Assembly: GCA_903833215.1 (NCBI GenBank)
Contig: CAILEM010000149.1
Location: 1 to 34,516 of the forward strand
DNA length: 34,516 nt
Source of the DNA: an uncultured Armatimonadota bacterium
Lineage (GTDB): Bacteria; Armatimonadota; Fimbriimonadia; Fimbriimonadales; Fimbriimonadaceae
Direction of reading: 5' to 3'
The notes under the pieces were generated by a model that saw only the letters and a list, made by a program, of their open reading frames with translations, was not told the DNA's origin and did not search any database. Below, piece after piece: positions 8,660 to 31,319 of the stretch. The translations under genes were made by a program, and so were the position numbers. The number at the start of each line of letters is the position of its first letter. Position 1 is the first letter of the stretch.

Positions 8660-8858
8660 TGCCCAGGATTTAGCGCATTTTGAACCTAATCTGAAGGTTA
8701 GCAGGGTGGACCCGACACGAAGATTCACCCGACAAAACTAATCGAGTTTAGGAACAACTCCTTAACACGGAAGCTGGTCGTTTAATCCGTCCTTAACAAT
8801 TCACAGATAGCTTATGTTTGTTTGACTCATTCCGGTTTTGACTGGGGTTCCCATAAAC

Positions 8859-9770
8859 ATGAAAAAAGCTTTTACTCTCATTGAGCTGTTGGTAGTTATC
8901 GCCATCATCGCAATTCTCGCTGCCATCCTTTTCCCTGTATTTGCTCAGGCAAAAGAAGCTGCTAAGAAGACCACGTGTCTTTCCAACACCAAGCAAATCG
9001 CCATGGGTCTGTACATGTACGCTGGCGATGCGGACGATACACTCTGCAACACTAGCTGGGAGCAACAGGCTTCCGGCGGCTATCCTGGAACATACAACCC
9101 AGCCAACCCGGCAGGCAATTACCAGGTGCACTGGTCCTTCCTCATTCAGCCATACATCAAGAACTGGAACATGTTCGTTTGCCCATCGGATCCAGCTCCG
9201 ACGCCAACAGACGTGCAGTGCACCAATGGCGTTTCCGACGTCGGTGTGTTACAGGGCGGAGTGATGACCTGCGACTGGGCTGCTCAGAAAAACAGCTATA
9301 TCGCGGTTTACAATGCGCTACCTGCCCATGACTGGGGAACCGTTTCGATGGGTCAGTATGCATCGCCAGCCAACCAGATCATGGTTACTGAGCACCGAAA
9401 TGACCTCGTTGCTGCTGACGGTCACAAGGGAGCCAGCGGCTTCTATCCTTCACAGCCATGTCCAGGCTGGGCACTTGTGCCATATCCTGCAAGCGGCAAC
9501 GCATACAGCTACTTCCCAGCTGCAGAAGCTCAGAAGCAGTACGCGCTCGCACTTCCAAACTTCGTTGCCAACAAGGCAATCTTCAAGAAGTACGATATCG
9601 TTCGCGTCGCATGGGATCGACACTCCGGCGGCCAGGGTGCGAACTACGCATTCGGCGACGGACACGCAAAGTACGAGAACCTCGGTCAGACGCTTAATCC
9701 AAATGCCTACCAGTACGGCGACAGATGGATTCCAAACTCTGCTCCTTGGAACAATTCGCCCTGCAACTAA
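8859..9770 (+). CDS. Type IV prepilin / pseudopilin with H-Xn-DG C-terminus
   Basis: The 303-residue protein begins [20 protein letters not shown], a textbook class III signal: prepilin peptidase would cut before the Phe after the short basic leader, and the hydrophobic helix would form the pilus core. The C-terminal region WDRHSGG...[10 protein letters not shown] matches the H-X9-DG domain of the large pseudopilin family common in Planctomycetes and Armatimonadota, although here 11 residues rather than 9 separate His from Asp-Gly. Seven cysteines are present. I chose ATG 8859 over an upstream TTG (8838) because the signal begins there. The gene is monocistronic with a strong terminator. It is probably a structural subunit for the pilus or secretion machine encoded further on. 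Confidence 0.92.
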
Positions 9771-10902: not shown

Positions 10903-10912
10903 GGGCGGATCA
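10883..10912. terminator. Hairpin covering both convergent stop codons
   Basis: TGATCCGCC (10883-10891) pairs perfectly with GGCGGATCA (10904-10912). Both stop codons of the convergent genes, TAA at 10900-10902 (+) and TGA at 10910-10912 (-), lie within the hairpin. Only seven bases separate the two coding regions. It can act in both directions, though the T runs that follow are weak. Confidence 0.5.
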
Positions 10913-12013
10913 CTTTGCCTTAGGTGGGGGAGCGTTAAAGATCTTCGCGAACTCGGGCCGAGAGATGACTTCTTTGATATCATAACTGGAGGCTTTGGCC
11001 ACCGGTTTGCCATCAATGAACAGAATATAAGTCGGTGTCTGCTTAACCCCTAAGCTGGCACCGATTTTCATTTCTCTGGTTACTTCCTCTTTCGCTGCAC
11101 TCTCTGTCCTTAGATGTTTAGAGTGGAATGAACTAAAGATCTTGTCCAGGTCATCCCGAGTGGGCTTCGTATCCATCGCGTAGACCTTTCCAACGAAGCC
11201 CCAAAAGTCATCTGCATTCAGTTGTTCACTGAGTTCCGCCGCGTACCTTGACTGCTCATGGCCTTCAAAGCCCACAAGGGGAAAATGGTGGAACATTAAT
11301 CGCACCTTTCCTTTTTGATGCACGAGGAATATAAGAAGGCGCTGATGCATCTGGCGGCAAGCCGGGCACATCAGATCAGAGAACTCAGCAATCGTTACCG
11401 GGGCATTCTCCTGACCTACAATTCGTGACGACGCCAACAACTCTGAGTAGGAGACTTTACCCAGGTCAATCGAGGATAAATCAGGCGGCTTCGGACGATT
11501 GATCGCGCCGTACACCCCAATTCCCACCACGATTAGGGAGGGAATCACGGCCCAAAGGATGGCGGATTTTGGCGGGGCCGTATCCTTGATTCCTTTTGAT
11601 CCACTGGGCATTGCGACGTAGGCAAGCGTCGACAATATCATCATCGATAACGAACCAAGACACCAAAGGCATGTTGCGTGAATCTTGGTGATGGCGTGAT
11701 AGGTGAGGACCACACTGATGATCGCGCCTGCGAAGGACATGATAAAGCCGACGAGCAAACTTGGTTTGACGGCAATACCACGAATCCTAGCGACAGCCAC
11801 GATGAGCAGAAACACATACGCGGCCATTCCGATTGCGGAAACCGGAACTCCCCTGAAATAAGAACTAGGGTCTTGTGCTACCTGATCACAACCGCTACTG
11901 CCCCCGCACGGCAACGGCATGTTAGAGGAATGGGCAAACGTTATGACCGATGAAATCGCCAAACCCGTTGCCGCACATGCCAGGGTAAGGCGATTAAGAA
12001 GGCTATATCTCAT
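10910..12013 (-). CDS. VKOR-DsbA fusion: thiol oxidase for disulfide formation
   Basis: The 367-residue protein joins a vitamin K epoxide reductase membrane domain (about residues 1-170, four to five hydrophobic segments) to a DsbA-like thioredoxin domain (about 190-360). In the membrane part, CGGSSGC gives the loop pair Cys36/Cys42 and CLWC gives the quinone-side pair Cys115/Cys118. The outside domain has CPAC (Cys216/Cys219) and the cis-Pro loop TPT (326-328). Such fusions oxidise cysteines of exported proteins and pass the electrons to quinone. I prefer ATG 12013 (AAGG five bases upstream) over a TTG at 12052. It lies 52 bases after the PilP-like gene on the same strand with no terminator between, so it is probably the last gene of the pilus operon. 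Confidence 0.92.
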   Translation of the reverse strand: MRYSLLNRLTLACAATGLAISSVITFAHSSNMPLPCGGSSGCDQVAQDPSSYFRGVPVSAIGMAAYVFLLIVAVARIRGIAVKPSLLVGFIMSFAGAIISVVLTYHAITKIHATCLWCLGSLSMMILSTLAYVAMPSGSKGIKDTAPPKSAILWAVIPSLIVVGIGVYGAINRPKPPDLSSIDLGKVSYSELLASSRIVGQENAPVTIAEFSDLMCPACRQMHQRLLIFLVHQKGKVRLMFHHFPLVGFEGHEQSRYAAELSEQLNADDFWGFVGKVYAMDTKPTRDDLDKIFSSFHSKHLRTESAAKEEVTREMKIGASLGVKQTPTYILFIDGKPVAKASSYDIKEVISRPEFAKIFNAPPPKAK

Positions 12014-12065
12014 GGAAACCTTGGTTGTTCCGAAGTACGATGGCTGGGCCAATGAATCGGTCTAG

Positions 12066-12737
12066 CTAGAGAGGATTGGGAGAGGGCGGTCTCGCTCCGA
12101 CCCGTAGAATGCGCAACGCACCACCGGATTCGATCACGACTTGCGTCTCGGACACTGACTTTAGGCGGAGGCCTCGGCCAAATTTCGCCCCACGGTCGAC
12201 AATAAACTGTTGCGACCCAACCTTGATGACAGCCACAGGTTTATCACCGGTAATGACTCCCATGACGGACATCGGTTCATCCGGAATGATGACAGGTGGG
12301 GGTAACTTGCCGTCGAGTGGATTGAAGATGTCCCCTGGACCTTTTCGGGTAGTGGTCGGTGGTCGAATTGGATCCAGTGGAGTTTTCGGCTCGACCTTTG
12401 GCGTTGGCAGAGGGCCCTTGTACGCGTATATATCCCTATGGAATGGGCTGGGTATCTCACCGGGCGGAAGGACCGGTGGGTCAATCATCGGATCCGCAGG
12501 TGGGGCAGCAGGAGCACCACCGGGAATCGCGATAGCAACCGTCGACCCACCGGCAGGGGCAGGAGTCGAACCAGCCGGCCCACCGCTAACCGCAACGGTT
12601 GGGGCTCCGCCGTCAACCGGAGGTGGCGTACCCGATGCTCCCAGAGTGTTTTTGATGACCATCGCGAACACGACAACAACTGCAACTCCAAGGCCAATAG
12701 CTTTCTGCTTATCTTGAGGTGTCGCTAGCGGTTTCAC
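12066..12737 (-). CDS. PilP/GspC-like pilus assembly protein
   Basis: The 223-residue protein has one membrane helix (about residues 13-30), a long Pro/Gly/Ala-rich linker (about 35-140) and a small beta domain at the C-terminus with MGVITGDKPVAVIKVGSQQFIVDRGAKF, the form of the secretin-binding HR domain of PilP and GspC. It should link the inner-membrane PilM-N-O platform to the secretin across the periplasm. The GTG start overlaps the secretin stop by four bases (GTGA at 12734-12737), so translation is coupled. The assignment rests on fold pattern and position more than on strong sequence identity. Confidence 0.7.
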   Translation of the reverse strand: MKPLATPQDKQKAIGLGVAVVVVFAMVIKNTLGASGTPPPVDGGAPTVAVSGGPAGSTPAPAGGSTVAIAIPGGAPAAPPADPMIDPPVLPPGEIPSPFHRDIYAYKGPLPTPKVEPKTPLDPIRPPTTTRKGPGDIFNPLDGKLPPPVIIPDEPMSVMGVITGDKPVAVIKVGSQQFIVDRGAKFGRGLRLKSVSETQVVIESGGALRILRVGARPPSPNPL

Positions 12738-14635
12738 TTAGCCTTCTCCGGCGGATCCTTCACAATATGCGGCGTAATGCTCACAAGAATGTCCTCTCGT
12801 GATTTAGTACGTGAACGACTCTTGAAGAGTTCGCCTATGATCGGAATTTTCGAGAGCCAAGGCACTGCGCTGATTGTCAATGTGTCTTGGTCTTGGATGA
12901 GGCCGCCGAGAACCGAAGTTTCTCCATCCTGCAGGATCATCGTGGTGTCCGCTTCCCTGGCTGCCGTCTGAGGAATGCCGTCGGCGTTGATGGAACTGAC
13001 CGTGCTGATGACAGGGTTCACGTGCACCGTAATGCTGCCATCGGGGCCGATGCGCGGACTAATCAGAAGGATGATGCCCACTGGGAACTGAGCGATGGAT
13101 TGACTCACACCACCCAACTGGGTTGTCGAGCTCAATTCAACGGCAATCGTATTACCGATAAAAATAGATCCTTGATCGTTATCAATGACCTGGATGCTCG
13201 GCTTCGCCAGCAACTTAGCCGTCTGGTTACTCACCATCGCACTCAGCGTGGCTTGGAAGTTGATCGGAGTCCGGCTCCATCTTCCTGTTGCCAAAGACTG
13301 TGTTCCACCCTGGGTCAAAGCAACCGCGCCCGCGGCGTCCTTTAGGAGGCCACCTGGCGGGATGTCATAAAAGTTGACCGGTGAGTATTTGTAGTCGATG
13401 CCTAACTTCTCGGAGTCGGTTGGCGAGGTTTCAATGACCTTGACGTCAATGACGACCTGCCTTGGCCTAACATCGATCTCGGTCAAGAGCTTGAGCGCGT
13501 TGTCTACGTCGCCCTGTCGACCTTTGAGGACGATGGACTTCGCACGATCGCCTACCTGCGGTGTATGTCCGCCTGGACCCGCCGCAGCACCGGCTCCCGC
13601 ACCAGCTCCACCACCGGCTCCCCCACCAGCCTGTCCTCCGCCGCCACCTGACGAGGAGCCACTTCCTCCTCCTGGTTGACCCGATGCCGCACCAGATGCG
13701 ATTTGGCTGCCGCTCAAAGTGATGGAGCCACGTTGAGGACTAAATTGCTCAGGCCCAACAAAGACGTCAAGCTCTGGTGCCGCCTTGCGTAGGAATGTCG
13801 CGAGGCTGGGGCCGTTCGCGTACTTCAAATTGTAAACGCTGATAACGATCTTGTTGGGTCCCGAAAGGGCCGAAGGCGTCTCAAGCTTTTCGATCGTGGC
13901 CTTTGCGTTCTTAACCATCGCTTCTGGGCCACGTAAACCAATGGCACCGAACGATTGGACCGAGCGTGCAACGCCGCTATCGCCTGTGGTCCCGGTTGGG
14001 GCGGCTAGGGGAGCGGTTTTGGAGCTATTTGTTGAAGTAACTTCAAGCATGGGATACAGGCCCTTGATCAGGGGAACGGCCTCTTCCGCATTCATTTGGT
14101 GCATAACCACCAATTCCGTTACGGCGGTCTTCTGGAAAATCTGAGCCCGGGTGATCTCCTCGATGCTGTCCGTGGCCGCACGCAGGTCCTCTGGAATTCC
14201 GGTAAAGGAAACCTTGTCTCCAATGGCTCGAACCGTCGCATACGGAAAAGCTTCTTGGATCTTTGGAGCGATCTGCTCCGCCATTCCAGGGTCCAGCGTG
14301 AAAGTCTCCGTCTTGGCATAAGGAGTGAGTGCATCCTTCATGCTTTCTTTCGTTGCCACGAGGTAAATATTCCCAACGCGACGCGCAACAAGACTGGCGG
14401 CCGAGCTAACGGCTTTGATCGCTTCATCCACCGAGTTCACGGATAGGTTAAGCGTGACCGAGACCTTGTTCTTATTGTTATAGAGAATGGACTCGCCGGT
14501 TTGCTTACTGATAGCCTGCAATACGTACGCGGCATCGGTATCTGTGAACACCATCGAAATTCTAGGGTGCCCAGATTGCTGAGCCGTCGCCACGGCTGAG
14601 ATGGCTAGGAATGCTAGGAGTGGCGTTTTCTTCAT
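12734..14635 (-). CDS. pilQ: Type IV pilus / type II secretion secretin
   Basis: The 633-residue protein has a signal peptide (1-19, ending AVATA) and a secretin/TonB short N-terminal domain (about 27-100). NolW-like N-domains follow (about 110-310). Residues about 315-357 are an extreme Gly/Ser/Ala linker. The secretin barrel domain spans about 391-630, with QVVIDVKVIETS at its start and the signature VLGGLIQDQDT and VPWLSKIPIIGELF near the end. It forms the outer-membrane ring through which the pilus passes, which implies a diderm cell. Its ATG overlaps the pilO stop by four bases (14632-14635), and its stop overlaps the PilP-like start in the same way. No PilQ AMIN domain is visible. Confidence 0.93.
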   Translation of the reverse strand: MKKTPLLAFLAISAVATAQQSGHPRISMVFTDTDAAYVLQAISKQTGESILYNNKNKVSVTLNLSVNSVDEAIKAVSSAASLVARRVGNIYLVATKESMKDALTPYAKTETFTLDPGMAEQIAPKIQEAFPYATVRAIGDKVSFTGIPEDLRAATDSIEEITRAQIFQKTAVTELVVMHQMNAEEAVPLIKGLYPMLEVTSTNSSKTAPLAAPTGTTGDSGVARSVQSFGAIGLRGPEAMVKNAKATIEKLETPSALSGPNKIVISVYNLKYANGPSLATFLRKAAPELDVFVGPEQFSPQRGSITLSGSQIASGAASGQPGGGSGSSSGGGGGQAGGGAGGGAGAGAGAAAGPGGHTPQVGDRAKSIVLKGRQGDVDNALKLLTEIDVRPRQVVIDVKVIETSPTDSEKLGIDYKYSPVNFYDIPPGGLLKDAAGAVALTQGGTQSLATGRWSRTPINFQATLSAMVSNQTAKLLAKPSIQVIDNDQGSIFIGNTIAVELSSTTQLGGVSQSIAQFPVGIILLISPRIGPDGSITVHVNPVISTVSSINADGIPQTAAREADTTMILQDGETSVLGGLIQDQDTLTISAVPWLSKIPIIGELFKSRSRTKSREDILVSITPHIVKDPPEKAK

Positions 14636-15387
14636 GGCTTAATCGTAATTCCCCGGACGGCGCCAGGCTTAATAGGCTGCGTTACCGCAGGTTTGGTTTC
14701 AGGTTTGATGGGGGTTGTGGTCGGCTTGGTTGGATCTGGCTTCGCAGGTACAACTACCAAAGAATTCTGGCCAGGGACGTTCCCAGGAGCAACCGGAGCT
14801 ACTGGGGCCGCCTTCTTGGGATCTTCAGGCTTCTTCATGCCCGGCTTTGGTGGAGCAACGTATCGTGACACCATTGCCGTCATTTGGGTTCCATAGTTTG
14901 TGGTCGACCACTGGACACCGGTAATGGTGTACAGACGGTTAGAACCCTGAATCTCCCCCAGGAACTTTCGAATATTTTGGTAAGAACCCGTCAAAGTGAG
15001 AGATGCGCTGACTTTACGAATTCCTTTGAGCAATGCCGCTGTCTGGTCATCTTTGGAAGCGGCCTGCTTGTCTTTCCCGTATTCAACCGACTGGCTGAAC
15101 CAGCTTTTGAGGGTTGCGCCATTGGCAGCGATACGAGTCCTCAAATAGTTAAGGAATTCAATTTCTTCTTCAGGCAAATCATCCTTTGTTGCGTAACGTA
15201 ACCCCGCTGGCCGTCCCTGGGAGGCATTGAAATCCTGCTGGGCCCGTTCAACATCGCGCTGGGCCTGGTTGTGGGCGATGCTTGCAGCCTCAAACTGTTG
15301 CCGTTCGCTGTACAGGGTAAATCCAGCAATGAGCATACAGAGTATGGGAATGCCCCAGCCTAGCAGTCTTATTCCATCAGCTTTCAT
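14632..15387 (-). CDS. pilO: PilO-like pilus assembly protein
   Basis: The 251-residue protein has one N-terminal membrane helix (about 8-25) and a coiled-coil stretch (about 30-60). An alpha/beta PilO-type domain follows to about residue 170, with SASLTLTGSYQNIRKFLGEIQ and a following LYTITGVQW strand as in PilO/GspM proteins. The tail (about 175-251) is unusually Pro/Lys-rich. It should pair with the PilN half of the fusion upstream in the inner-membrane alignment complex. Its ATG overlaps the stop of the fusion gene by four bases (15384-15387). Confidence 0.85.
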   Translation of the reverse strand: MKADGIRLLGWGIPILCMLIAGFTLYSERQQFEAASIAHNQAQRDVERAQQDFNASQGRPAGLRYATKDDLPEEEIEFLNYLRTRIAANGATLKSWFSQSVEYGKDKQAASKDDQTAALLKGIRKVSASLTLTGSYQNIRKFLGEIQGSNRLYTITGVQWSTTNYGTQMTAMVSRYVAPPKPGMKKPEDPKKAAPVAPVAPGNVPGQNSLVVVPAKPDPTKPTTTPIKPETKPAVTQPIKPGAVRGITIKP

Positions 15388-17087
15388 TTCTTTTTGTCCT
15401 CAGGAAGCCGAATGCGGCCAACAGACACGGCGGTGCCATTGATTTCAAAACCATAACCGATACCTTGTTCGGGGACCAATTCACCGAACCTTACAATCCT
15501 GATATTGGTCAAGACAGGGCATCTCTGCAGGGTTTCGTAGAAATCAATCAGCAGCGTCTCATTCACTGACTGCCCTTGGATGACCACCCGGTAGTCGGGT
15601 GCAATCTGAATATTATCGAGACCACTTCCAGGCTTAACGCTGTTCGAGATGAAATCCATAATCTCGATAACAGGAGCACCTTCACTTCGAAGAGCTTTGT
15701 ATTGATCTTCCTGACGTTGCCGCTCTTGGACGACGAGATTCGTTTTGCTTTTCAGCTCATTCGCCCTCGCAACCGTCTCATTCGTCTCAACTTGAAGCGA
15801 GACAATCTGCTTGTTGTAAAGAAAATAGCCGGTCACACCCAGCGCGATCGCGAGGAGCGAGGCAAAGATGGACCCTCGGAAGTTTCTCTGCGTTTCCGCT
15901 TGTTGGACGCCAGCCCTTTGTTTGCTGTACAGGTCAATCCGGGGAACGCGCCCCATGATCTGCTGCCCATGCAGCGCCAGACCAAAAGCGGCGGCGTACA
16001 TGGGGCCAAGTGCATTGCTTGAATCCGCTAACTCGGGCGTCTCCTGAACGTGGAGAGTTGGGCGAAGGGGCTCTATGGACACTCCGAGAGACAGAGTCAG
16101 TTCTTTCGCAACAACATCAATTCGGGCATCGTCAATCGCCAGATAGAGATTCTCTTCAATCGTAACTTCAGGAAACTCACGCTGATAGTAGTTCAACGTG
16201 CGCTGGACTTCAAGGGATAGGCTCTCGACAGCCAACCTATTGAGACCACTGGGTCCGCTTGCGGTATTCGGGTTGGACCTCGTGTTGCCATAGGCATCAA
16301 CACCCATCGCTGTGGGACCAGGAGAACCCGGAGAGTCGGTGGTCGTGCTGTACTCCAGGGTCAGAAGCCGGGAACCAATATCGATTCGGCGGTAGCCGAC
16401 GATCAATCCTTTGTGAACGAACGCCACGTCGGTATTTGCCGGCGAGATCATCAAGGCAAACAGAGTCGCCCCTGGACCGCCCGCCATCATGATCGAGCGG
16501 AACATCGCATATTGCGTCGGCTCAATCGATTCGATCGCAAGGTTGGATTGCTCAACCGTGTCCTGCAAAGAGTAAAGGACGTCTTCTTCAACAGCGACAA
16601 CCGTAACAACCGCGGGATTCTGGTCTCCAGCCTCAGGGTCTAGCCATGTTTCCCGCTTATCGGAGCCACTCTGGGTGTTCCGCGATTCGCTGGAGGAGCG
16701 AGTGTGTGGAATCAGGCGGAGATAGCTATAGGCACCACCCGGTGAGTGGACGAGACCATAGTGGTTCACTTCACCCGCGATAATCATCGGGAGCTCGTGA
16801 TCCGGCACCGGTGGAACCGACATGGTTCGCAGCGTCGTTCCATCGCCAAGCACGCCAACAACGGTTCTGCCTGCATTCCCAATTTCCATTGAGTTCAGGA
16901 GGAGCCTTAATGCAACCGCGACGGGACCTGGGTGAAGCACTCGCCCGTTTTGAACCGCGCCCTCAGGCATCGGGGCGCGACCAAATTTGCCGAGCGTCAG
17001 CCTATTCGCGCGGCTGCTCATTTGCACCACACGAATCTCTTGCTCGTGCAAGTCTATTCCCAAAATTGAAGTGTCTTTACGAACCAT
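15384..17087 (-). CDS. pilM: PilM-PilN fusion protein of the pilus alignment complex
   Basis: The 567-residue protein combines two parts that are normally separate genes. Residues 1-375 are an actin-like PilM: LGIDLHEQEIRVVQM at the start and MYAAAFGLAL at the end of the ATPase-like fold. RIDLYSKQR (383-391) matches the PilN N-terminal motif that usually binds PilM. It is followed by one membrane helix (about 405-425), a coiled coil and a PilN beta domain to the end. PilM is cytoplasmic and PilN crosses the membrane, so the fusion keeps the known topology and locks their 1:1 ratio. Pro/Ser/Gly-rich inserts occur at about 130-157 and 250-282. The gene begins 105 bases after the PilW-like prepilin; no strong ribosome site is seen before ATG 17087. 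Confidence 0.9.
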   Translation of the reverse strand: MVRKDTSILGIDLHEQEIRVVQMSSRANRLTLGKFGRAPMPEGAVQNGRVLHPGPVAVALRLLLNSMEIGNAGRTVVGVLGDGTTLRTMSVPPVPDHELPMIIAGEVNHYGLVHSPGGAYSYLRLIPHTRSSSESRNTQSGSDKRETWLDPEAGDQNPAVVTVVAVEEDVLYSLQDTVEQSNLAIESIEPTQYAMFRSIMMAGGPGATLFALMISPANTDVAFVHKGLIVGYRRIDIGSRLLTLEYSTTTDSPGSPGPTAMGVDAYGNTRSNPNTASGPSGLNRLAVESLSLEVQRTLNYYQREFPEVTIEENLYLAIDDARIDVVAKELTLSLGVSIEPLRPTLHVQETPELADSSNALGPMYAAAFGLALHGQQIMGRVPRIDLYSKQRAGVQQAETQRNFRGSIFASLLAIALGVTGYFLYNKQIVSLQVETNETVARANELKSKTNLVVQERQRQEDQYKALRSEGAPVIEIMDFISNSVKPGSGLDNIQIAPDYRVVIQGQSVNETLLIDFYETLQRCPVLTNIRIVRFGELVPEQGIGYGFEINGTAVSVGRIRLPEDKKK

Positions 17088-17192
17088 GACGTACGGGGAG
17101 GCGACGGCTATTCATCAATACGCCGCACCTAGACCAATGAGAGGACGAACGGGCGGGCGTAGATGGTGCCAAAAATTGCACGCGATTCGCAG

Positions 17193-17744
17193 CTACGGAT
17201 TATTTCGCAAGCGAACAAACGTGTTGTACGTAGTGTTTCCGCCACTGATACTAACGTTTACAGAAATTTGCACAGCGATCAGAGTAGAGATCGTGCTGTT
17301 TGTCGGCGTAAAGGTTGCCAGAGAATTGGCATAGTATGCCGACGACGTGTAGTAAGTTAAAGTAACGGTCGCCCCGGAGGCCAACACCACCGTACTTCCA
17401 CCCGTCGTCATCTGAAAATTATTTCCAGACGTAGCAAAAACAGTCTGAACGAGCGTACCGGAGCTATCTCTTGAGTAGATAGTGCATCCGTTAGAGGAGC
17501 AATCCTGCATGCTGGAATTAAGGACGCACCCTGTATCAGTGGCTGAACAATTAGCTGCTCCGCGGATCGAATTTGCCAATTTATAGGCGATCTGCTCTGC
17601 CCACTGCTGGGAGGCTGGCAAACCCACGCTTCGGCCCTGCGCCTTCCACATCTGAAGGAAAGCGACAAGAATTCCGGCCATGATGATAGCAAAAACAATC
17701 AGACCGGTGAGTATCTCCACCATCGTGAAGCCTCGTCGCCTCAT
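17193..17744 (-). CDS. PilW-like minor prepilin
   Basis: The 183-residue protein starts MRRRGFTMVEILTGLIVFAI. The basic leader, Gly before Phe and Glu at mature position 5 form a prepilin peptidase site, with the hydrophobic helix to about residue 28. The mature domain is Ser/Thr-rich and carries four cysteines close together (about residues 62-90). It probably belongs to the minor-pilin complex that primes pilus assembly. Its ATG overlaps the preceding prepilin stop by four bases (17741-17744). The family name is based on position and the signal; the globular part is divergent. Confidence 0.85.
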   Translation of the reverse strand: MRRRGFTMVEILTGLIVFAIIMAGILVAFLQMWKAQGRSVGLPASQQWAEQIAYKLANSIRGAANCSATDTGCVLNSSMQDCSSNGCTIYSRDSSGTLVQTVFATSGNNFQMTTGGSTVVLASGATVTLTYYTSSAYYANSLATFTPTNSTISTLIAVQISVNVSISGGNTTYNTFVRLRNNP

Positions 17745-18262
17745 AGGCCGCCCTGCACCATATTCGTCGCCATTGTGAAATCAACAGCACCACTTGAAAC
17801 GTTGGTGACAGTCACAACCGCAGCCCTCATACTTGTTGGCGCTAGCGTGTAGGAGTTGCCGGAGTTATTTGCCAGGATGGACGAATCAGTCAGCGTCATA
17901 CTCACGGAAAAAAAGACACCTGGAGAATTGGACGACGCGAGCTGTACCCCCGTGTAACTGTAATAGGCAGTTGCTCCTGAAGTCCAGCCGGTACTTGGAA
18001 TGTATGCACCCGTCCAAGTACCGGTTTGACTCGAAGATTGGTACTGCCCCAAAGGAAGATTGGCAGCACCATATACCTTCGCAATTTCTAGCTCGGACTG
18101 AGCTATGTTCGCAGCTTCGGTGATCTCCGAAATCTTGGCACTCTGCTTGTAGCAGGCTGACCAAGTGGCAAACATTGCGACGACTACGATCGTCAAAATG
18201 AATGTCGCAATGATGCCCTCGATTAACGTGAAGCCTCGGCTGCGAAACGATTTAGGAGCCAT
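17741..18262 (-). CDS. PilV-like minor prepilin
   Basis: The 173-residue protein from ATG 18262 reads MAPKSFRSRGFTLIEGIIAT, a prepilin signal with Glu at mature position 5. A longer reading from GTG 18319 would add 19 non-typical residues, so I rejected it. The mature part is Ser/Thr-rich with a single cysteine (ACYKQ). The start lies inside the end of the cysteine-rich gene (11-base overlap), so translation is probably coupled. With the PilX- and PilW-like neighbours it forms the usual minor pilin set. Confidence 0.87.
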   Translation of the reverse strand: MAPKSFRSRGFTLIEGIIATFILTIVVVAMFATWSACYKQSAKISEITEAANIAQSELEIAKVYGAANLPLGQYQSSSQTGTWTGAYIPSTGWTSGATAYYSYTGVQLASSNSPGVFFSVSMTLTDSSILANNSGNSYTLAPTSMRAAVVTVTNVSSGAVDFTMATNMVQGGL

Positions 18263-19886
18263 AAGAACCGTTACAACTCCAGGACACTGCTCTTCCGCCT
18301 GAACAAGGATCCTTTTCACATGTCTTAGAAGGAGTGTATTCGCACTTGTTGTGGCCTTGGAAGGTCAGCTTGTCACAGAGCATCGAACCGTGCAAGTGAC
18401 ATGACCCGTGGCTTGTTGGCGTGGTTGTGCCACATCCACTTGTCAGCTCTGTTCCGTGGAACTTGACTGTGCAACCTACTTTCGAACTCGAATCTCCACA
18501 AGGCTTGCTGCAAGCGTAGACGCCGCAGTAGTAGTCGAAGTCGGTGTCGATCGAGTTGCCCTGCCAGTCTTTGCAGCCCTCAGGGTGGTTGAACTCACAG
18601 GTAGCGCCGTCCTTGTCGTAGTAGAGTCGGAATTGGCCTGGATCTGGATCCTCGCCCGATTTGCAGGTGTTCTTAATTGGGAGTTGGCAAACGTCAGACG
18701 TGTTGCCGTTGGCGACAGCATTCTGATCAACACACCAGAAGCGGACTTGACCAGCCGTTCCACCGCTTGCGTAAGCACACGGATCGATCACGATCTCTTT
18801 GCTCGCATCATAAAGAAGCGACATGTTCGTGAAGTAATAGTCGCCAGGTTCGAAAATCAGCGTCTGAACAGCAACCGTGTTGTGCCAGCCGAACCACCAG
18901 AAGCTTGAATCATAAGTTCCGGGCTTGGTGTTGCAATCTTGGAAGTCAGTGTTGTTCAATGACGAGCCAAGGTCATTTCCGTACTTGGTGCAGTTCGACG
19001 TATTGATTGTCGAGCTTCCCGCCGTGGACTTGTAGTGATAGACCTTTGAGTTTGTGCAGGTTGCATTGCTGCATGCCGTGTAGGCAACTGAATCCGAGTC
19101 ATTATCGTTGCATCCGAACGCATGTCGGCACACATCAGAGGTCTTAGGGTGAATCATCGGAGGATCGACTTGGCAGAGGTTGCCACCCGAGCTCACGTTG
19201 CCACTTCCAAACTGTCCTGAGGAGTGGTTCTGATGGTTACAGTTAATCGCGGTAGGAGCAGTGAAGCCGCAGGATCCGCCCTGTGAGACGGGGCCATTAA
19301 CGCCGCCAGATCCACCAATCGTGGTGTGTGAGCCCGAACCAGCCGTGACGGTTGGAGTTCCCGTGTCACCGCTTGCAAAAATACCGTAGACATTGAAGAG
19401 CGAAGCCGAAGTAGCTTGCACCTTTACTGTCTGCCAGCACTTGTTGACGACGGCGGAGCAGGTGATATAGAACGGTGAAGTGACGCCATCCCAAGCAACT
19501 GTTCCAGAGGCGTTGTTGCTACTGTATACGTAGAATGTGCCACCACTATAGCCAGTGATCGTTCCAGGTCGGCCAAGGACGACAGTCGAAGAGCCAGGCA
19601 ACTTCGCGGTAACACCACTGGTCGCTACCGGCTGGGAAGATTTGAGTGTTGCGTTTGCCGCGCCGACATTTTTAGCAATGTACTGAAGCTCGGAGTTAAC
19701 TCCTGCATCTGCAAGCTGAAGTGCCGCTTCTGAATAGGATTGGTTCCAGCCGAGCTTTGTTGTCGTTAGAGCAACCGTCAAGCTCGCTCCTAGCAGTAGC
19801 GCAGTACACAGCGAGAGTATTAGCACCGTGATTAAGGCTGCTCCAGCTTCGCGACGTATGCGCGCTTTGTTTCTAATTTGTTTCAT
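18252..19886 (-). CDS. Cysteine-rich PilX-like pilus-associated protein
   Basis: The 544-residue protein has an N-terminal PilX-type signature: a basic leader, a hydrophobic segment (about 15-40) and EAALQLADAGVNSEL after it. The leader lacks the usual prepilin cut site pattern and Glu5. The large outside part resembles DUF7305-type domains (FNVYGIFASGD, then TLIFEPGDYYF). It has 29 cysteines, 28 of them in the exported region, many in closely spaced pairs such as C-x4-C-x3-C (about 474-484) and a dense C-terminal third. That is exceptional for a pilus protein and suggests many disulfides. I infer a tip adhesin or minor subunit folded by the VKOR-DsbA enzyme of the same cluster. It is the first gene of the operon, and a 15-base palindrome overlaps its leader. 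Confidence 0.82.
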   Translation of the reverse strand: MKQIRNKARIRREAGAALITVLILSLCTALLLGASLTVALTTTKLGWNQSYSEAALQLADAGVNSELQYIAKNVGAANATLKSSQPVATSGVTAKLPGSSTVVLGRPGTITGYSGGTFYVYSSNNASGTVAWDGVTSPFYITCSAVVNKCWQTVKVQATSASLFNVYGIFASGDTGTPTVTAGSGSHTTIGGSGGVNGPVSQGGSCGFTAPTAINCNHQNHSSGQFGSGNVSSGGNLCQVDPPMIHPKTSDVCRHAFGCNDNDSDSVAYTACSNATCTNSKVYHYKSTAGSSTINTSNCTKYGNDLGSSLNNTDFQDCNTKPGTYDSSFWWFGWHNTVAVQTLIFEPGDYYFTNMSLLYDASKEIVIDPCAYASGGTAGQVRFWCVDQNAVANGNTSDVCQLPIKNTCKSGEDPDPGQFRLYYDKDGATCEFNHPEGCKDWQGNSIDTDFDYYCGVYACSKPCGDSSSKVGCTVKFHGTELTSGCGTTTPTSHGSCHLHGSMLCDKLTFQGHNKCEYTPSKTCEKDPCSGGRAVSWSCNGSYGS

Positions 19887-19897
19887 GGTTCGCTTCT

Positions 19898-19912
19898 CTG
19901 AGTTTAACTCAG
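19898..19912. promoter_or_regulatory. Perfect 15-base palindrome in the leader of the pilus operon
   Basis: CTGAGTT and AACTCAG flank one central base. It lies 12-26 bases before the ATG of the cysteine-rich gene, next to the probable ribosome site (AGAGAAG on the minus strand). A protein bound here, or a small hairpin in the RNA, could block translation or transcription of the whole minor-pilin operon. Confidence 0.45.
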
Positions 19913-20395
19913 TTTAAATACTTTTGGCGGGTACACGCCTTTCACGATAAGGATATCGCCGTTTAACCGCGTAGACAAGTAGTTATTGTATGGTCACGTG
20001 TCTCCGGTAGCGTAAAACCATTACGTATATGTACCTGATCCATCTTCTCTTTCGAAACCTCGATTCACTACCCTTCGGGTCTCCACCGAACAAGATCTGT
20101 TCCCACCTGAGCGAAGAACTTATACAACCGGCTTACCCAACATTACGTCTCCTGCATCTCAAATGTTGCATTCAAGTCAAGACTCTGCACTTACACGTGA
20201 CCACAACAATAACGAGAAAGGGAGTGAGTGCAAAACTCATTTTTAGCTGAATCTCGCCACTCCTTGCTTCACAAGATTATTGTCGGTGATTTGGCTGACA
20301 TTCGCAACGACTTCGCCTCATTCTTGTCCCTTCAGACACAAAAACCGGGTCTTCCGGGTCCATTTGAAGTCCATTGACCGATAAGGTTCTTGTCC

Positions 20396-20422
20396 GATGG
20401 TCCCAGAAAGACTGGGACCATC
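20396..20422 (-). terminator. Perfect 11-bp hairpin after pilC
   Basis: GATGGTCCCAG (20396-20406) pairs with CTGGGACCATC (20412-20422) around a 5-base loop, starting 11 bases after the pilC stop on the minus strand. No T run follows, so it may be a weak terminator or an RNA end that protects the pilB-pilC message. Confidence 0.5.
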
Positions 20423-20432
20423 TCGGTTATCG

Positions 20433-21671
20433 CTACTTAGCGTTAAGGGCTTTGCCGAGGCTAAAGACCGGCATATACAGCGCGAGAAGAATCAAAAGCA
20501 CGATTCCTCCGACCAGTATCGTCATCAGGGGCTCAATCATTCTCGTCAATGCTTCAACCGCGTACTCAACATCTCGCTCGTAGTAGCTGTTGACTTCTTC
20601 GAGCATCACGTCAAGATTTCCGCTGGATTCACCAGCCGCCAACATCCGCGTAACCATCATCGGAAATTCGCCGGTGCGCTCAAGCTCAATCGCGATGGAT
20701 GCACCATCTCGAATCTTATTCGACGCATCCGAAACGGCATCTCGAATGACCATATTTCCAGCCGTATTGGAGGCAATGGTGAGTGCCTGAAGAATAGGAA
20801 CACCACTACCGAGGGCGCTACTGAGCGTTTGGACAAATCGAGCGATCGCGATCTTCCGGAAGACGACGCCAAGAACCGGAATTTTCAAAGAGATAATGTC
20901 CAGTCGACGCTTTCCACCTTCTGTGTCGGCATATCTCTTATATCCGTAAACACCGAGGCCAATAGGAATGAGCAATAGCCACCCATAACGGACACCGATA
21001 TCGCTGATCATGATCAGCATTCTCGTTGGCAACGGAAGTTCCTGCTTGAGCTGCTTATAAACCTGCGCAAATACGGGAACGACGAGCAGCAGCATCAAGG
21101 CGATCGTACCGATACAAGCGCCGACAACGATCTTTGGGTACGTCGTGGCTGCCTTGACTTTGCGTTTTAAGTTATCTTCTCGATTAAGCTGCAGCGCCGC
21201 TGCTTCGAGGGTTCCGTCCAGATTTCCCGTAGCCTCACCCGACTCAACAAACGCGATAAGCAGTTTGTTGAATACCTTCGGGTATTGCGCCATGGCAACT
21301 GAAAGCGACTGACCCGACGAAACCGCTTTTTCCAACTCGCGGAAAACGAAGCGCAGGATCGGCTTAGTCGTCTGTGCTCCCACCAAGGCAAGGCCTTCCA
21401 TCATCGGTAGACCGGAGCGCATCATTGTCGAGAGCTGCCTGGTCGCGATAACCATGTCCTGAATACTTGGCTTCGCATCAAAGAGCCCTTGGGGCGCCTT
21501 CTCGACAGTTGTTCCTTCTGCGTCCTTTCCTCTGTCGGTGCCCTTGATCTGCGTCAAGAACAAACCGTTCTGACGCAGGATACGACGCAGTTCGGCTTCA
21601 TCAGCGGCTTCTATCAGCCCTGCACTCGACTTCCCACCGGCATCTCTGGCAACGTACTTGTACTTCGGCAT
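20433..21671 (-). CDS. pilC: Type IV pilus inner-membrane platform protein PilC (GspF family)
   Basis: The 412-residue protein from ATG 21671 begins MPKYKYVARDAGGK, the standard N-terminus of the family; a TTG at 21692 inside pilB is the alternative. Two GspF domains follow (about 70-195 and 275-400), each with the FxxxLxxxxxSGxPxxxxL and FxxxxAxGExSGxLxxxL type motifs. Membrane helices are near 175-205, 225-245 and 385-410. It is the platform in the inner membrane turned by the PilB ATPase. It starts four bases after the pilB stop, with AAGAAGAA at the end of pilB as the likely ribosome site, so the two are coupled. Confidence 0.95.
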   Translation of the reverse strand: MPKYKYVARDAGGKSSAGLIEAADEAELRRILRQNGLFLTQIKGTDRGKDAEGTTVEKAPQGLFDAKPSIQDMVIATRQLSTMMRSGLPMMEGLALVGAQTTKPILRFVFRELEKAVSSGQSLSVAMAQYPKVFNKLLIAFVESGEATGNLDGTLEAAALQLNREDNLKRKVKAATTYPKIVVGACIGTIALMLLLVVPVFAQVYKQLKQELPLPTRMLIMISDIGVRYGWLLLIPIGLGVYGYKRYADTEGGKRRLDIISLKIPVLGVVFRKIAIARFVQTLSSALGSGVPILQALTIASNTAGNMVIRDAVSDASNKIRDGASIAIELERTGEFPMMVTRMLAAGESSGNLDVMLEEVNSYYERDVEYAVEALTRMIEPLMTILVGGIVLLILLALYMPVFSLGKALNAK

Positions 21672-21675
21672 AAAA

Positions 21676-23391
21676 CTATTCTTCTTGGGCAAATACGCGC
21701 ATGATCTCGTCGGCCGACAGTTGGAAATTCAGGGCTTTCTTGATAGCAACTTCACGCATCGTCATCATGCCCTCGTCTATTGCTTGGACGGTTAGCTCCT
21801 GCCCAGAGCATCGCCGAAGCACCATTTCACGCAGTTTTTCTGTCATCGGCAGAATTTCTAGCGCAGCGCTTCTGCCCTTGGTACCTCTTCCACCACACCT
21901 TTTGCAGCCAACTGCCCTTGCCATTTTCGGAATTTTGCCGTCGACGACCTGGATTCCAGCAGCCAAGGCAACCTCAAGGGTCGGGGTGTATTCCTCGCGA
22001 CAGAAGGGACAGAGGCTTCTTAGCAGGCGTTGGCCAATGATGCCCAGGATGGCAGAACTGACGAGGAAAGGCTCAACCCCCATGTTCTGAAGTCGAACGA
22101 GAGCTCCCGGTGCGTCGTTGGTGTGCAAAGTGCTAAGCACCAAGTGGCCGGTAAGAGCCGCCTGAATGGCGATCTCAGCCGTATCCTTGTCGCGGATCTC
22201 ACCGACGAGGATGACGTCGGGGTCTTGCCGAACCAGAGTTCTCAGCCCCGCGGCAAAGGTGACACCAATCTTGGCATTGACCTGCATCTGGTTAATGCCA
22301 GACAAACGATATTCAACCGGATCCTCGACCGTGTTGATGTTCTTGGTCGAGTCGTTAATCGCCTGAAGGGCTGCATAAAGCGTTGTCGACTTACCCGATC
22401 CTGTAGGGCCAGTTACCAAGATCAAACCGTGCGGACGATGAATGAACCGCTCAAACATCTCCCGCTGCACAGGCATGAAACCGATCTTATCGACGCTAGC
22501 CAACGCGTTGGCCTTCTCAAGAAGTCGCATACAAGCCTTTTCGCCATAAACAGTCGGCATAAGACTGAGGCGGATGTCAAATTCTCGACCGGTATCATCG
22601 CGGGTGCTAAAGCGACCATCTTGGGGGCGCCGGCGCTCGGCAATATCAAGGCCACCCATAATTTTGAGTCGCGAAACGCACGACGCCATGTAACTCGCAG
22701 GGAGCGTCATCTGCTCATACATCACACCGTCGATTCGATAGCGGACACGCACGCCGTTCTCTTGTGGTTCCAAGTGGATGTCACTCGCGCCCGCAACAAC
22801 AGCTCCGCCCACCAAGCTGTTCACGAGCCTAACGATCGGTGCCCGTTGACCCTCGTCATAGGCCTCCTCCTCCTGAGTATCTTCGACAAGGACGGTGGTC
22901 GATTCACCCATCTCATTGATGAGGTTCTTGACCTTGTCACGATCATCATAGGATCGCTTGATCACCTCGTTGAGATCGGCACTTAACGCAAGGCAAGCAA
23001 CAATCGGCTTATTGATGGTCGCACGGTACTCGTCGATCGTCTCGATATCGAGCGGATCCGCCATCGCGATATAAACGCGGCCATTCACTTCTCGATAGGG
23101 CAACGCAATCCGATTTACGACTGTCGCCTTTGGGACGAGCATAACCAGATCGCGATCAATTTCCTCTTCGAGAATGTCGACAAACGGAAAGCCTGTCCAC
23201 TCTTCAAGGTAAGGCTTGATCTGTGCCGCAGAGAGAAAGCCCATGGAAACGATGATCTCGCCGAGAAAACCACCCGATTTCTTTTGTTTCTGAATGGCTT
23301 CACGTAGTTGGTCGTCGTTAAGGACGCCATCCTTAACTAACCGCTCACCCAGACGGCCCAATAGGAACCGCTGCCCTTTCATCGACATCAT
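21676..23391 (-). CDS. pilB: Type IV pilus extension ATPase PilB (GspE family)
   Basis: The 571-residue ATPase powers pilus extension or pseudopilus assembly from the cytoplasm. An MshEN-type N-domain (about 1-150, GERLVKDGVLNDDQLREA) may bind cyclic di-GMP in relatives. Then come the N2 domain and the ATPase core: Walker A GPTGSGKST (328-336), Asp box VEDPVEY (355-361), Walker B region (389-400) and His box near 415-425. A tetracysteine zinc site has CPFC (461-464) and CKRC (496-499). Three Met codons are close together; AAGGGG is best spaced for the second ATG (23388). pilC follows four bases later. No retraction ATPase (pilT) lies in this window. Confidence 0.96.
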   Translation of the reverse strand: MMSMKGQRFLLGRLGERLVKDGVLNDDQLREAIQKQKKSGGFLGEIIVSMGFLSAAQIKPYLEEWTGFPFVDILEEEIDRDLVMLVPKATVVNRIALPYREVNGRVYIAMADPLDIETIDEYRATINKPIVACLALSADLNEVIKRSYDDRDKVKNLINEMGESTTVLVEDTQEEEAYDEGQRAPIVRLVNSLVGGAVVAGASDIHLEPQENGVRVRYRIDGVMYEQMTLPASYMASCVSRLKIMGGLDIAERRRPQDGRFSTRDDTGREFDIRLSLMPTVYGEKACMRLLEKANALASVDKIGFMPVQREMFERFIHRPHGLILVTGPTGSGKSTTLYAALQAINDSTKNINTVEDPVEYRLSGINQMQVNAKIGVTFAAGLRTLVRQDPDVILVGEIRDKDTAEIAIQAALTGHLVLSTLHTNDAPGALVRLQNMGVEPFLVSSAILGIIGQRLLRSLCPFCREEYTPTLEVALAAGIQVVDGKIPKMARAVGCKRCGGRGTKGRSAALEILPMTEKLREMVLRRCSGQELTVQAIDEGMMTMREVAIKKALNFQLSADEIMRVFAQEE

Positions 23392-29818: not shown

Positions 29819-31276
29819 TTAGGCGACGATGTCGTGAATCACATTTCCGTATAGGTCGGTCAGGCGATAGTCGCGTCCAGCGTGACGGTAGGTGAACTTC
29901 AGGTGGTCGAAGCCGAGCAGGTGGAGGATCGTGGCATGGAGGTCATGCACATGAACCGGATTCTGCTCGGCTTTGAATCCAAAGTCGTCAGTCGCCCCGT
30001 ACACCGTGCCGCGCTTCACGCCGCCGCCCGCCATCCAGTAAGTGAAGCCGTAGTGATTATGGTCGCGCCCATTCGCATGTCCAGCGTTGGCACCAGGCGT
30101 CGGGAGTTCCACCGTCGGAGTGCGGCCAAACTCGCCGCCCCAGATCACAAGTGTGTCATCCAACATGCCGCGTTGCTTTAAGTCGGTTAGAAGTGCGCCA
30201 ATCGCCTGATCTGACTCGTGAGCCAAATTGCGGTGCGCCACCGCGATGTCGTCGTGGCTATCCCACGGCTGACCGGCACCGTGATAGAGCTGAATGAACC
30301 GAACTCCACGCTCCGCAAGCCGCCGAGCCATGAGGCACTGACGAGCAAACGTCCCCGGCCCATACATATCGCGGGTCGCCTGCGACTCCTTATTGACGTC
30401 GAACGCATCGGTCGCCTCGGTCTGCATTCGGTAAGCCAGTTCGAACGACTGGATGCGCGACTCGAGGGCAGCGTCGTGTCCTCTCAAGTCGGCATGCTTT
30501 CGGTTCAGTCGTTGAACCAGATCAAGCTGCTCCCGCTGATCACTTGGCAGTGTGTAGTGGTCTTTGATGTTCTCGATCAGCTTATCGATATCGGTATTCG
30601 CGGGGTCGATATACGTTCCGGCTAGGACTCCCGGCAAGAACCCAGACTGCCAGTTCTGAGTTTCCTGAATCGGAAATCCGCCTGGACACATCGCAATGAA
30701 GCCAGGCAAATTCTGATTCTCGGTCCCCAAACCATAAAGCACCCAAGAGCCCATCGAAGGGCGAACCATCCGCGACTCGCCGCAGTTCATCAACAGCAGC
30801 GATGGCTCGTGGTTTGGCACATCCGCATGCATCGAGCGGATGACGACCATGTCGTCGACGTGCTTGGCGACATTCGGGAAGATCTCACTTACCTCGATTC
30901 CCGACTGGCCGTACTTCTTGAAACTGTAGGCCGAAGGAAACGCGGCACCGGTTTTTCGCTCGGTGGGAAGTTGAAGTGGAATCGGCTGGCCCGCATATTT
31001 CTGCAGCGCGGGCTTAGGGTCGAATGTGTCGACCTGAGATGGCCCGCCGTTCATAAATAGGAAGATCACACGCTTGGCTTTGGCCTTCAGCGGAGGCGCG
31101 TGGGGTGCAAGCGGGTTCTGCGCATTGCCGGTCGAGCCAGGTCCTGCTGCGAAGGCCGACTCTCCCATCAAGCCCATCAAACCAAGCGCGGCAAAGCCGT
31201 TACCCATCCGGCCCAGCAGTTGCCGACGGCTTAGAAAGAGATCACGGAATGGATCGTTGTGGTTGTATTCAGACAT
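29819..31276 (-). CDS. DUF1501 protein with Tat-type signal
   Basis: The 485-residue protein has a twin-arginine-like start: SRRQLLGRMG at about 16-25, then a hydrophobic stretch ending AFAA. DUF1501 follows from about 65 with FLFMNGGPSQVDTFDPKP, and the C-terminal end TYRHAGRDYRLTDLYGNVIHD is usual for the family. The fold is related to alkaline phosphatase/sulfatase enzymes, but the function of DUF1501 is unknown. It almost always sits beside a DUF1549/DUF1553 protein, as here (43 bases downstream of it). The pair probably acts together at the cell envelope. Confidence 0.9.
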   Translation of the reverse strand: MSEYNHNDPFRDLFLSRRQLLGRMGNGFAALGLMGLMGESAFAAGPGSTGNAQNPLAPHAPPLKAKAKRVIFLFMNGGPSQVDTFDPKPALQKYAGQPIPLQLPTERKTGAAFPSAYSFKKYGQSGIEVSEIFPNVAKHVDDMVVIRSMHADVPNHEPSLLLMNCGESRMVRPSMGSWVLYGLGTENQNLPGFIAMCPGGFPIQETQNWQSGFLPGVLAGTYIDPANTDIDKLIENIKDHYTLPSDQREQLDLVQRLNRKHADLRGHDAALESRIQSFELAYRMQTEATDAFDVNKESQATRDMYGPGTFARQCLMARRLAERGVRFIQLYHGAGQPWDSHDDIAVAHRNLAHESDQAIGALLTDLKQRGMLDDTLVIWGGEFGRTPTVELPTPGANAGHANGRDHNHYGFTYWMAGGGVKRGTVYGATDDFGFKAEQNPVHVHDLHATILHLLGFDHLKFTYRHAGRDYRLTDLYGNVIHDIVA

Positions 31277-31319
31277 TGGTGGCCCTGACTTGGTAGGTAC
31301 TTATCATACGATCCTAAAA

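Follow-up and report, generated by a model that had tools for sequence, protein, structure and literature searches.

A pilus-linked VKOR-DsbA oxidase and a cysteine-rich, putatively ComZ-like tip pilin in a type IV pilus locus of Armatimonadota

Does a disulfide-forming enzyme whose gene closes a type IV pilus operon serve the cysteine-rich protein encoded at the start of the same run of genes? The question is raised by a 34,516-nucleotide stretch of DNA, referred to here over its full length as the window, from an uncultured bacterium of the Fimbriimonadaceae (phylum Armatimonadota), the genome of which (6.2 Mb, 168 contigs) is denoted G000. A first-pass annotation of the window had proposed that the oxidase is dedicated to folding the cysteine-rich protein. 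This is too strong, as the oxidase also accompanies cysteine-poor tip proteins in two related genomes (G002 and G016), and two-cysteine pilins are other possible substrates. An oxidase found in relatives without the cysteine-rich gene was an outcome that the annotation itself had named as refuting, and this outcome is observed in part. We prefer the reading of a pilus-linked oxidase that later permitted a cysteine-rich tip, which fits these observations; our best explanation, and one that we consider probable, is that the pilus-linked oxidase came first and the cysteine-rich solenoid tip afterwards, with disulfides made by the operon-encoded VKOR-DsbA.

The locus occupies the minus strand from 23391 to 10910, in the order PilB, PilC, a 546-base gap, tip protein, two prepilins, PilM, PilO, secretin, PilP-like protein and VKOR-DsbA (Table 1). 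Neighboring genes in the run overlap or lie close together, and the two widest gaps measure 105 and 52 bases; the latter, at 12014-12065, separates the end of pilP from the oxidase ATG at 12013, just as first annotated, and a TTG start at 12052 is also possible. Because pilC and pilB lie upstream on the same strand, across the 546-base gap (19887-20432), the pilus locus exceeds the interval 10910-19886 to which it had initially been assigned. Pfam identifies PilB, PilC, PilQ, PilM and two N_methyl prepilins, a type IVa pilus set in one locus, while PilO and PilP were assigned solely by position and by comparison with relatives. The true start of the second minor pilin probably lies inside its open reading frame, near the prepilin motif. 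Neither a PilT retraction ATPase nor a PilD prepilin peptidase was found within the window. Scans of the window for consensus promoters and terminators returned chance-level results, so that gene spacing alone points to co-transcription. Relatives carry one or two genes for two-cysteine pilins between pilC and the tip gene; the corresponding interval of the window (19887-20432) holds no pilin or recognizable pilin remnant, and its major pilin must thus be encoded elsewhere. Two further features of the window lie beyond the pilus genes: a DUF1559-type prepilin-like protein with an N_methyl motif, adjoining the locus on the opposite strand (8838-9770), and a DUF1501 protein adjoining a PSCyt1/PSCyt2/PSD1 protein with a cytochrome c-type domain (29819-34274), a pair familiar from Planctomycetes.

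Table 1 Genes of the pilus locus, with positions in the window and the evidence for each assignment.
Feature	Position	Strand	Evidence
VKOR-DsbA fusion, pilus-linked type, last gene of the run	10910..12013	-	Pfam VKOR 1.9e-18, Thioredoxin_4 6.2e-18
PilP-like protein	12066..12737	-	Position, weak T2SSC match, homologues at the same place in relatives
PilQ/GspD-type secretin	12734..14635	-	Pfam Secretin 1.1e-40; TIGR02515/TIGR02517 below cut-off
PilO-like protein, one N-terminal TM helix	14632..15387	-	Position and homologues in relatives; no Pfam family
PilM, probably fused to a PilN-like C-terminal part	15384..17087	-	PilM_2 8.5e-07; PilN 0.028 (below cut-off) at 476-549
Minor pilin 1, 4 Cys	17193..17744	-	N_methyl 1.8e-05; weak PilV/ComGF similarity
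Minor pilin 2	17741..18319	-	N_methyl 7.9e-06; ComGE-like 6e-08, below cut-off
Cys-rich large tip-type pilin (PilX/ComZ-like beta-solenoid), 544 aa, 29 Cys	18252..19886	-	Cys count, AlphaFold, Foldseek, VIA-align
PilC (T2SSF)	20433..21692	-	Pfam 2.7e-59
PilB extension ATPase with MshEN domain	21676..23391	-	Pfam T2SSE 2.7e-128, MshEN 1.1e-15

The assignment of the last same-strand gene as a VKOR-DsbA fusion with three cysteine pairs is borne out by its Pfam domains and by its motifs: the loop cysteine pair of the VKOR domain (CGGSSGC) and its CxxC (CLWC) are followed by a thioredoxin/DsbA domain with a CxxC (CPAC) and a cis-Pro, all three pairs being intact. Residues C36, C42, C115, C118, C216 and C219, together with TP327, are invariant in the six pilus-linked homologues. 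The same domain order and the same three cysteine pairs are present in the VKOR-DsbA fusions of Synechococcus and Clostridium sp., for which the accessible part of the source describes no link to pilus genes, and which include a fusion reported there to complement an Escherichia coli dsbA dsbB double mutant (PMC12453122). The window enzyme would oxidize exported thiols using quinone. When 38 VKOR-DsbA proteins are placed in a tree, the six pilus-linked copies group as a single clade (99/95), and copies located beside mnmA fall outside it; together with the position of the gene downstream of pilP in all six genomes, this upholds the view that the oxidase is part of the pilus locus. G000 encodes a second VKOR-DsbA on contig C134, next to a gene recognized as mnmA by the N-terminal sequence of its product and not by family search; this copy belongs to the housekeeping type found family-wide. 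Since G000 also encodes other DsbA-like proteins, the pilus copy may be redundant, which counts against our best explanation, as does a genome search that found no DsbC-type isomerase, although isomerases of another kind may be present. In the G002 pilus-linked oxidase (L083:14791-15885), the CPAC of the DsbA active site is replaced by CESC, a difference that may alter the redox strength of the enzyme. A third kind of VKOR-DsbA lies near small exported cysteine-rich proteins of 118, 123 and 124 aa, with 11, 8 and 9 cysteines and no Pfam match, in G007, G019 and G012 (L112:5691-8001, L113:2058-3662 and L114:2492-8387, respectively); in G012 this VKOR-DsbA also adjoins a second DsbA-like protein with 14 cysteines.

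At the other end of the run, the count of 29 cysteines with 28 exported stands, C27 alone being placed in the N-terminal membrane helix. Cysteine makes up 5.3% of the protein, the highest value among 64 other mechanically called, exported-looking open reading frames in a 268-kb sample of G000 being 2.9%. Versions with 26-38 cysteines are kept in four genomes including that of the window, at 50-56% identity and with intact frames; the cysteine-rich tip is therefore neither chance nor an assembly artefact. The window protein has no Pfam or NCBIfam match, and at the curated cut-off of PilX_N (PF14341) it goes unmatched while three of eight homologues match (best 9.3e-05). An AlphaFold model built on eight homologues, of middling confidence (mean pLDDT 69.5, pTM 0.67), predicts a long N-terminal helix followed by many short strands. 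The best Foldseek matches to this model are three chains of the Thermus thermophilus pilin ComZ (6QVI; E 4.9e-05 to 1.7e-04), and VIA-align returned Z 14.9 over 250 residues for ComZ and Z 15.5 over 195 residues for the ice-binding protein FfIBP. A pilin helix joined to an FfIBP-type beta-solenoid, the hallmark of the ComZ type, is thus present in the model at its middling confidence.

ComZ is a large pilin whose N-terminal part resembles GspK and into which a beta-solenoid is inserted. According to the ComZ authors, FfIBP is the nearest structure to this solenoid, and such a pilin, they argue, fits only at the pilus tip (PDB 6QVI, PMC6561018). The nearest solenoid to the window protein is likewise FfIBP, and in both systems minor pilins adjoin. 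Fold and size together suggest that the product of 18252-19886 is a ComZ-like tip pilin. The two differ in that sequence identity is about 10-14%, that DNA-binding assays exist for ComZ, that the ComZ paper leaves disulfides unmentioned and mentions cysteine once (PMC6561018), and that no oxidase is described for the ComZ locus. G000 also encodes a solitary paralogue of the tip protein (contig C20, L079:12585-14261) with 41% identity and 6 cysteines, near which no pilus or oxidase gene was found; a tree built without the cysteine columns left it unplaced between cysteine loss and branching before the gain.

To what extent do oxidase and cysteine content go together? The order PilX, minor pilins, PilM, PilO, PilQ, PilP, VKOR is common to six genomes. 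Four of them have cysteine-rich tips (29 cysteines in G000, 36 in G004, 38 in G012 and 26 in G019), and in all four the VKOR start lies -4 to +52 bases from pilP. The other two have tips with few cysteines (3 in G002, 5 in G016), which counts against our best explanation, and here an extra open reading frame separates pilP from VKOR-DsbA. Tip proteins of loci without an operon oxidase have 3 (G063), 5 (G007), 4 and 2 (G013) and 3 (G083) cysteines; G014, where the contig ends just after pilP, was left out of oxidase scoring. The expectation that the oxidase gene tracks with the cysteine-rich gene therefore holds in one direction: a cysteine-rich tip always comes with the oxidase (4/4 loci), but the oxidase does not always come with a cysteine-rich tip (4/6). 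A search of 291 Armatimonadota genomes brought up proteins near the pilus-linked family in these six alone (at least 499 bits, the next scoring 304), and at the other best VKOR loci of the phylum, examined with flanks of about 1.5 kb, neighbors match no pilus gene and several lie beside mnmA. A scan of 50 VKOR loci from several phyla with 10-kb flanks detected pilus neighbors only in four of the six genomes. A pilus-linked oxidase outside the genus is supported by neither scan. Separately, G019 (L090:7487-10639) and G012 (L091:8726-11700) carry a second PilM-PilO-PilP set that is devoid of secretin, tip pilin and oxidase.

In a tree built from PilB, PilC, PilM and PilQ, the four loci with cysteine-rich tips form one clade (100/100), so that the correlation between oxidase and cysteine content represents one evolutionary event with no independent replication, a further point against our best explanation. 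The oxidase-lacking G063 pairs with the oxidase-bearing G002, and a single clade of oxidase-bearing loci was rejected (p-AU 0.0054). Taken together with the single VKOR clade, this topology suggests that the oxidase was gained once and lost in G063, and that the cysteine expansion followed later; alternatively, the oxidase may have been transferred between loci. As G002 and G016 combine the oxidase with cysteine-poor tips, the simplest order is oxidase first and cysteine expansion second.

These two genomes also speak for a different account, in which the oxidase mainly serves minor pilins and the ordinary two-cysteine pilins, or any protein exported during pilus production, and the cysteine-rich tip came later for unrelated reasons and is oxidized mostly by the housekeeping VKOR-DsbA. 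The pilins in these loci do carry two cysteines, the housekeeping enzyme is present family-wide, and G063, nested among the oxidase-bearing loci, maintains a full pilus operon without the oxidase. However, two-cysteine pilins also occur in the oxidase-less loci of G063 and G013, hence the oxidase is not needed for them, and the tightest linkage between oxidase and operon coincides with the cysteine-rich tip; we regard this account as unlikely, though it deserves to be taken seriously.

How do the tip cysteines behave among the four cysteine-rich proteins? Cysteine is found in 65 alignment columns, and in only 9 of these do all four proteins share it; pairwise conservation of cysteine is 37%, to which alignment error in loops may contribute, as compared to 75% in the VKORs of the same genomes. 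Cysteine is less conserved in the tip proteins than Tyr, Phe, Gly, Pro, Asp, Trp and Leu, and the residues that replace it are mixed (Thr, Ile, Ala, Ser, Val, Gly and Asn). Such turnover is unlike a fixed disulfide set and counts against our best explanation. As judged from the alignment, it would fit a solenoid that gains and loses different disulfides, or a surface on which the number of thiols outweighs their place. On the latter account, the tip cysteines would mainly act as thiols on the protein surface, binding metal ions, minerals or thiol-reactive surfaces, their count mattering and not their pairing. In keeping with this, the overall number of cysteines remains high while individual positions are replaced about as fast as the average, and G012 and G019 may export an odd number of cysteines if the one in column 37 lies in the membrane helix. 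The motif content argues otherwise: CxC, CxxC and CC show no excess over shuffles in the four cysteine-rich proteins, and no CxxCH haem motif occurs in any of 12 tip-protein homologues. As an oxidase from the same operon would, in addition, tend to remove free thiols, we consider surface thiols very unlikely to be the main role. The motif counts also rule out two other candidates, a multihaem cytochrome filament or wire (CxxCH being absent from the 12 homologues) and a metallothionein-like metal binder (CxC and CC not being above shuffles).

That the tip cysteines form disulfides, and that the pilus-linked enzyme forms them, is what we infer. More tentatively, and with some doubt, we propose that capture of the oxidase makes cysteine gains tolerable, such that the total number of disulfides is selected while their positions drift, yielding a rapidly rearranged set. 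Least probable of all is chance proximity, whereby a duplicated general oxidase landed behind pilP in an ancestor and was inherited there without a functional link: of the 291 genomes only six, all from one genus, show the linkage, and it was apparently lost at least once, but the gene has kept its place despite divergence of the pilus-linked enzymes to about 31% identity, and in four genomes it stays tightly coupled to pilP.

The first-pass annotation knew of no pilus system built in this way. In a literature search with most subscription journals outside its reach, no type IV pilus operon with an oxidase next to a cysteine-rich pilin was found described, which is weak evidence of novelty. 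BdbD and BdbC of Bacillus subtilis are encoded away from the comG operon. As thiol-disulfide oxidoreductases linked to a type IV-like pilus, they resemble the window enzyme; they are needed to build the ComG competence pilus and act on its major pilin ComGC (PMC8262900), and they differ in being a DsbA/DsbB-type pair with a major pilin, not a cysteine-rich tip, as client. In Actinomyces oris, MdbA folds pilus proteins oxidatively, is linked by menaquinone to the respiratory chain and is reoxidized by VKOR (PMC5478893). Oxidative folding of pilus proteins and the involvement of a VKOR enzyme are thus shared, whereas the A. oris pili are sortase-assembled, the DsbA-like and VKOR proteins are separate and the oxidase is a general one. 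Myxobacterial PilY1 is a type IVa tip protein for which the available part of the source gives median cysteine counts that differ by clade, from 17 to 41, together with numerous predicted disulfides (PMC13190605). It parallels the window protein in its strongly clade-dependent cysteine number, and differs in being a beta-propeller/vWFA adhesin, not a solenoid pilin, with no operon-encoded oxidase described in that part. Pilus-serving oxidases and cysteine-rich tips are therefore each described already (PMC8262900, PMC5478893 and, as far as the available part goes, PMC13190605); the claim of novelty is tenable for their combination, which appears to be new on what is weak evidence.

Taken together, a model for the locus emerges. 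It would make a type IV pilus tipped by a large ComZ-like pilin, with an N-terminal helix and a solenoid outside the cell, and the VKOR-DsbA at the operon end would be a pilus-linked copy of the cell's general oxidase. Electrons from the cysteines of newly exported pilus proteins would pass to the DsbA domain, on to the VKOR domain and finally to quinone, with the formation of disulfides. The oxidase would have joined the pilus locus while the tip was still cysteine-poor, its clients then presumably being the two-cysteine pilins; in one clade, the tip would later have gained its 26-38 cysteines, which the co-produced oxidase could convert to disulfides that would stiffen or protect the exposed solenoid. 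The data suggest, and do not prove, that the operon oxidase makes a cysteine-rich tip possible. On this model, the order of events can be read in living relatives, which have either no oxidase and few cysteines, the oxidase and few cysteines, or the oxidase and many cysteines. This series of related operons would allow testing whether a local oxidase lets a secreted protein gain many cysteines, raises the question of what use a heavily cross-linked pilus tip may have, and would add the Armatimonadota to the few lineages with a link between a filament and a disulfide-forming enzyme.
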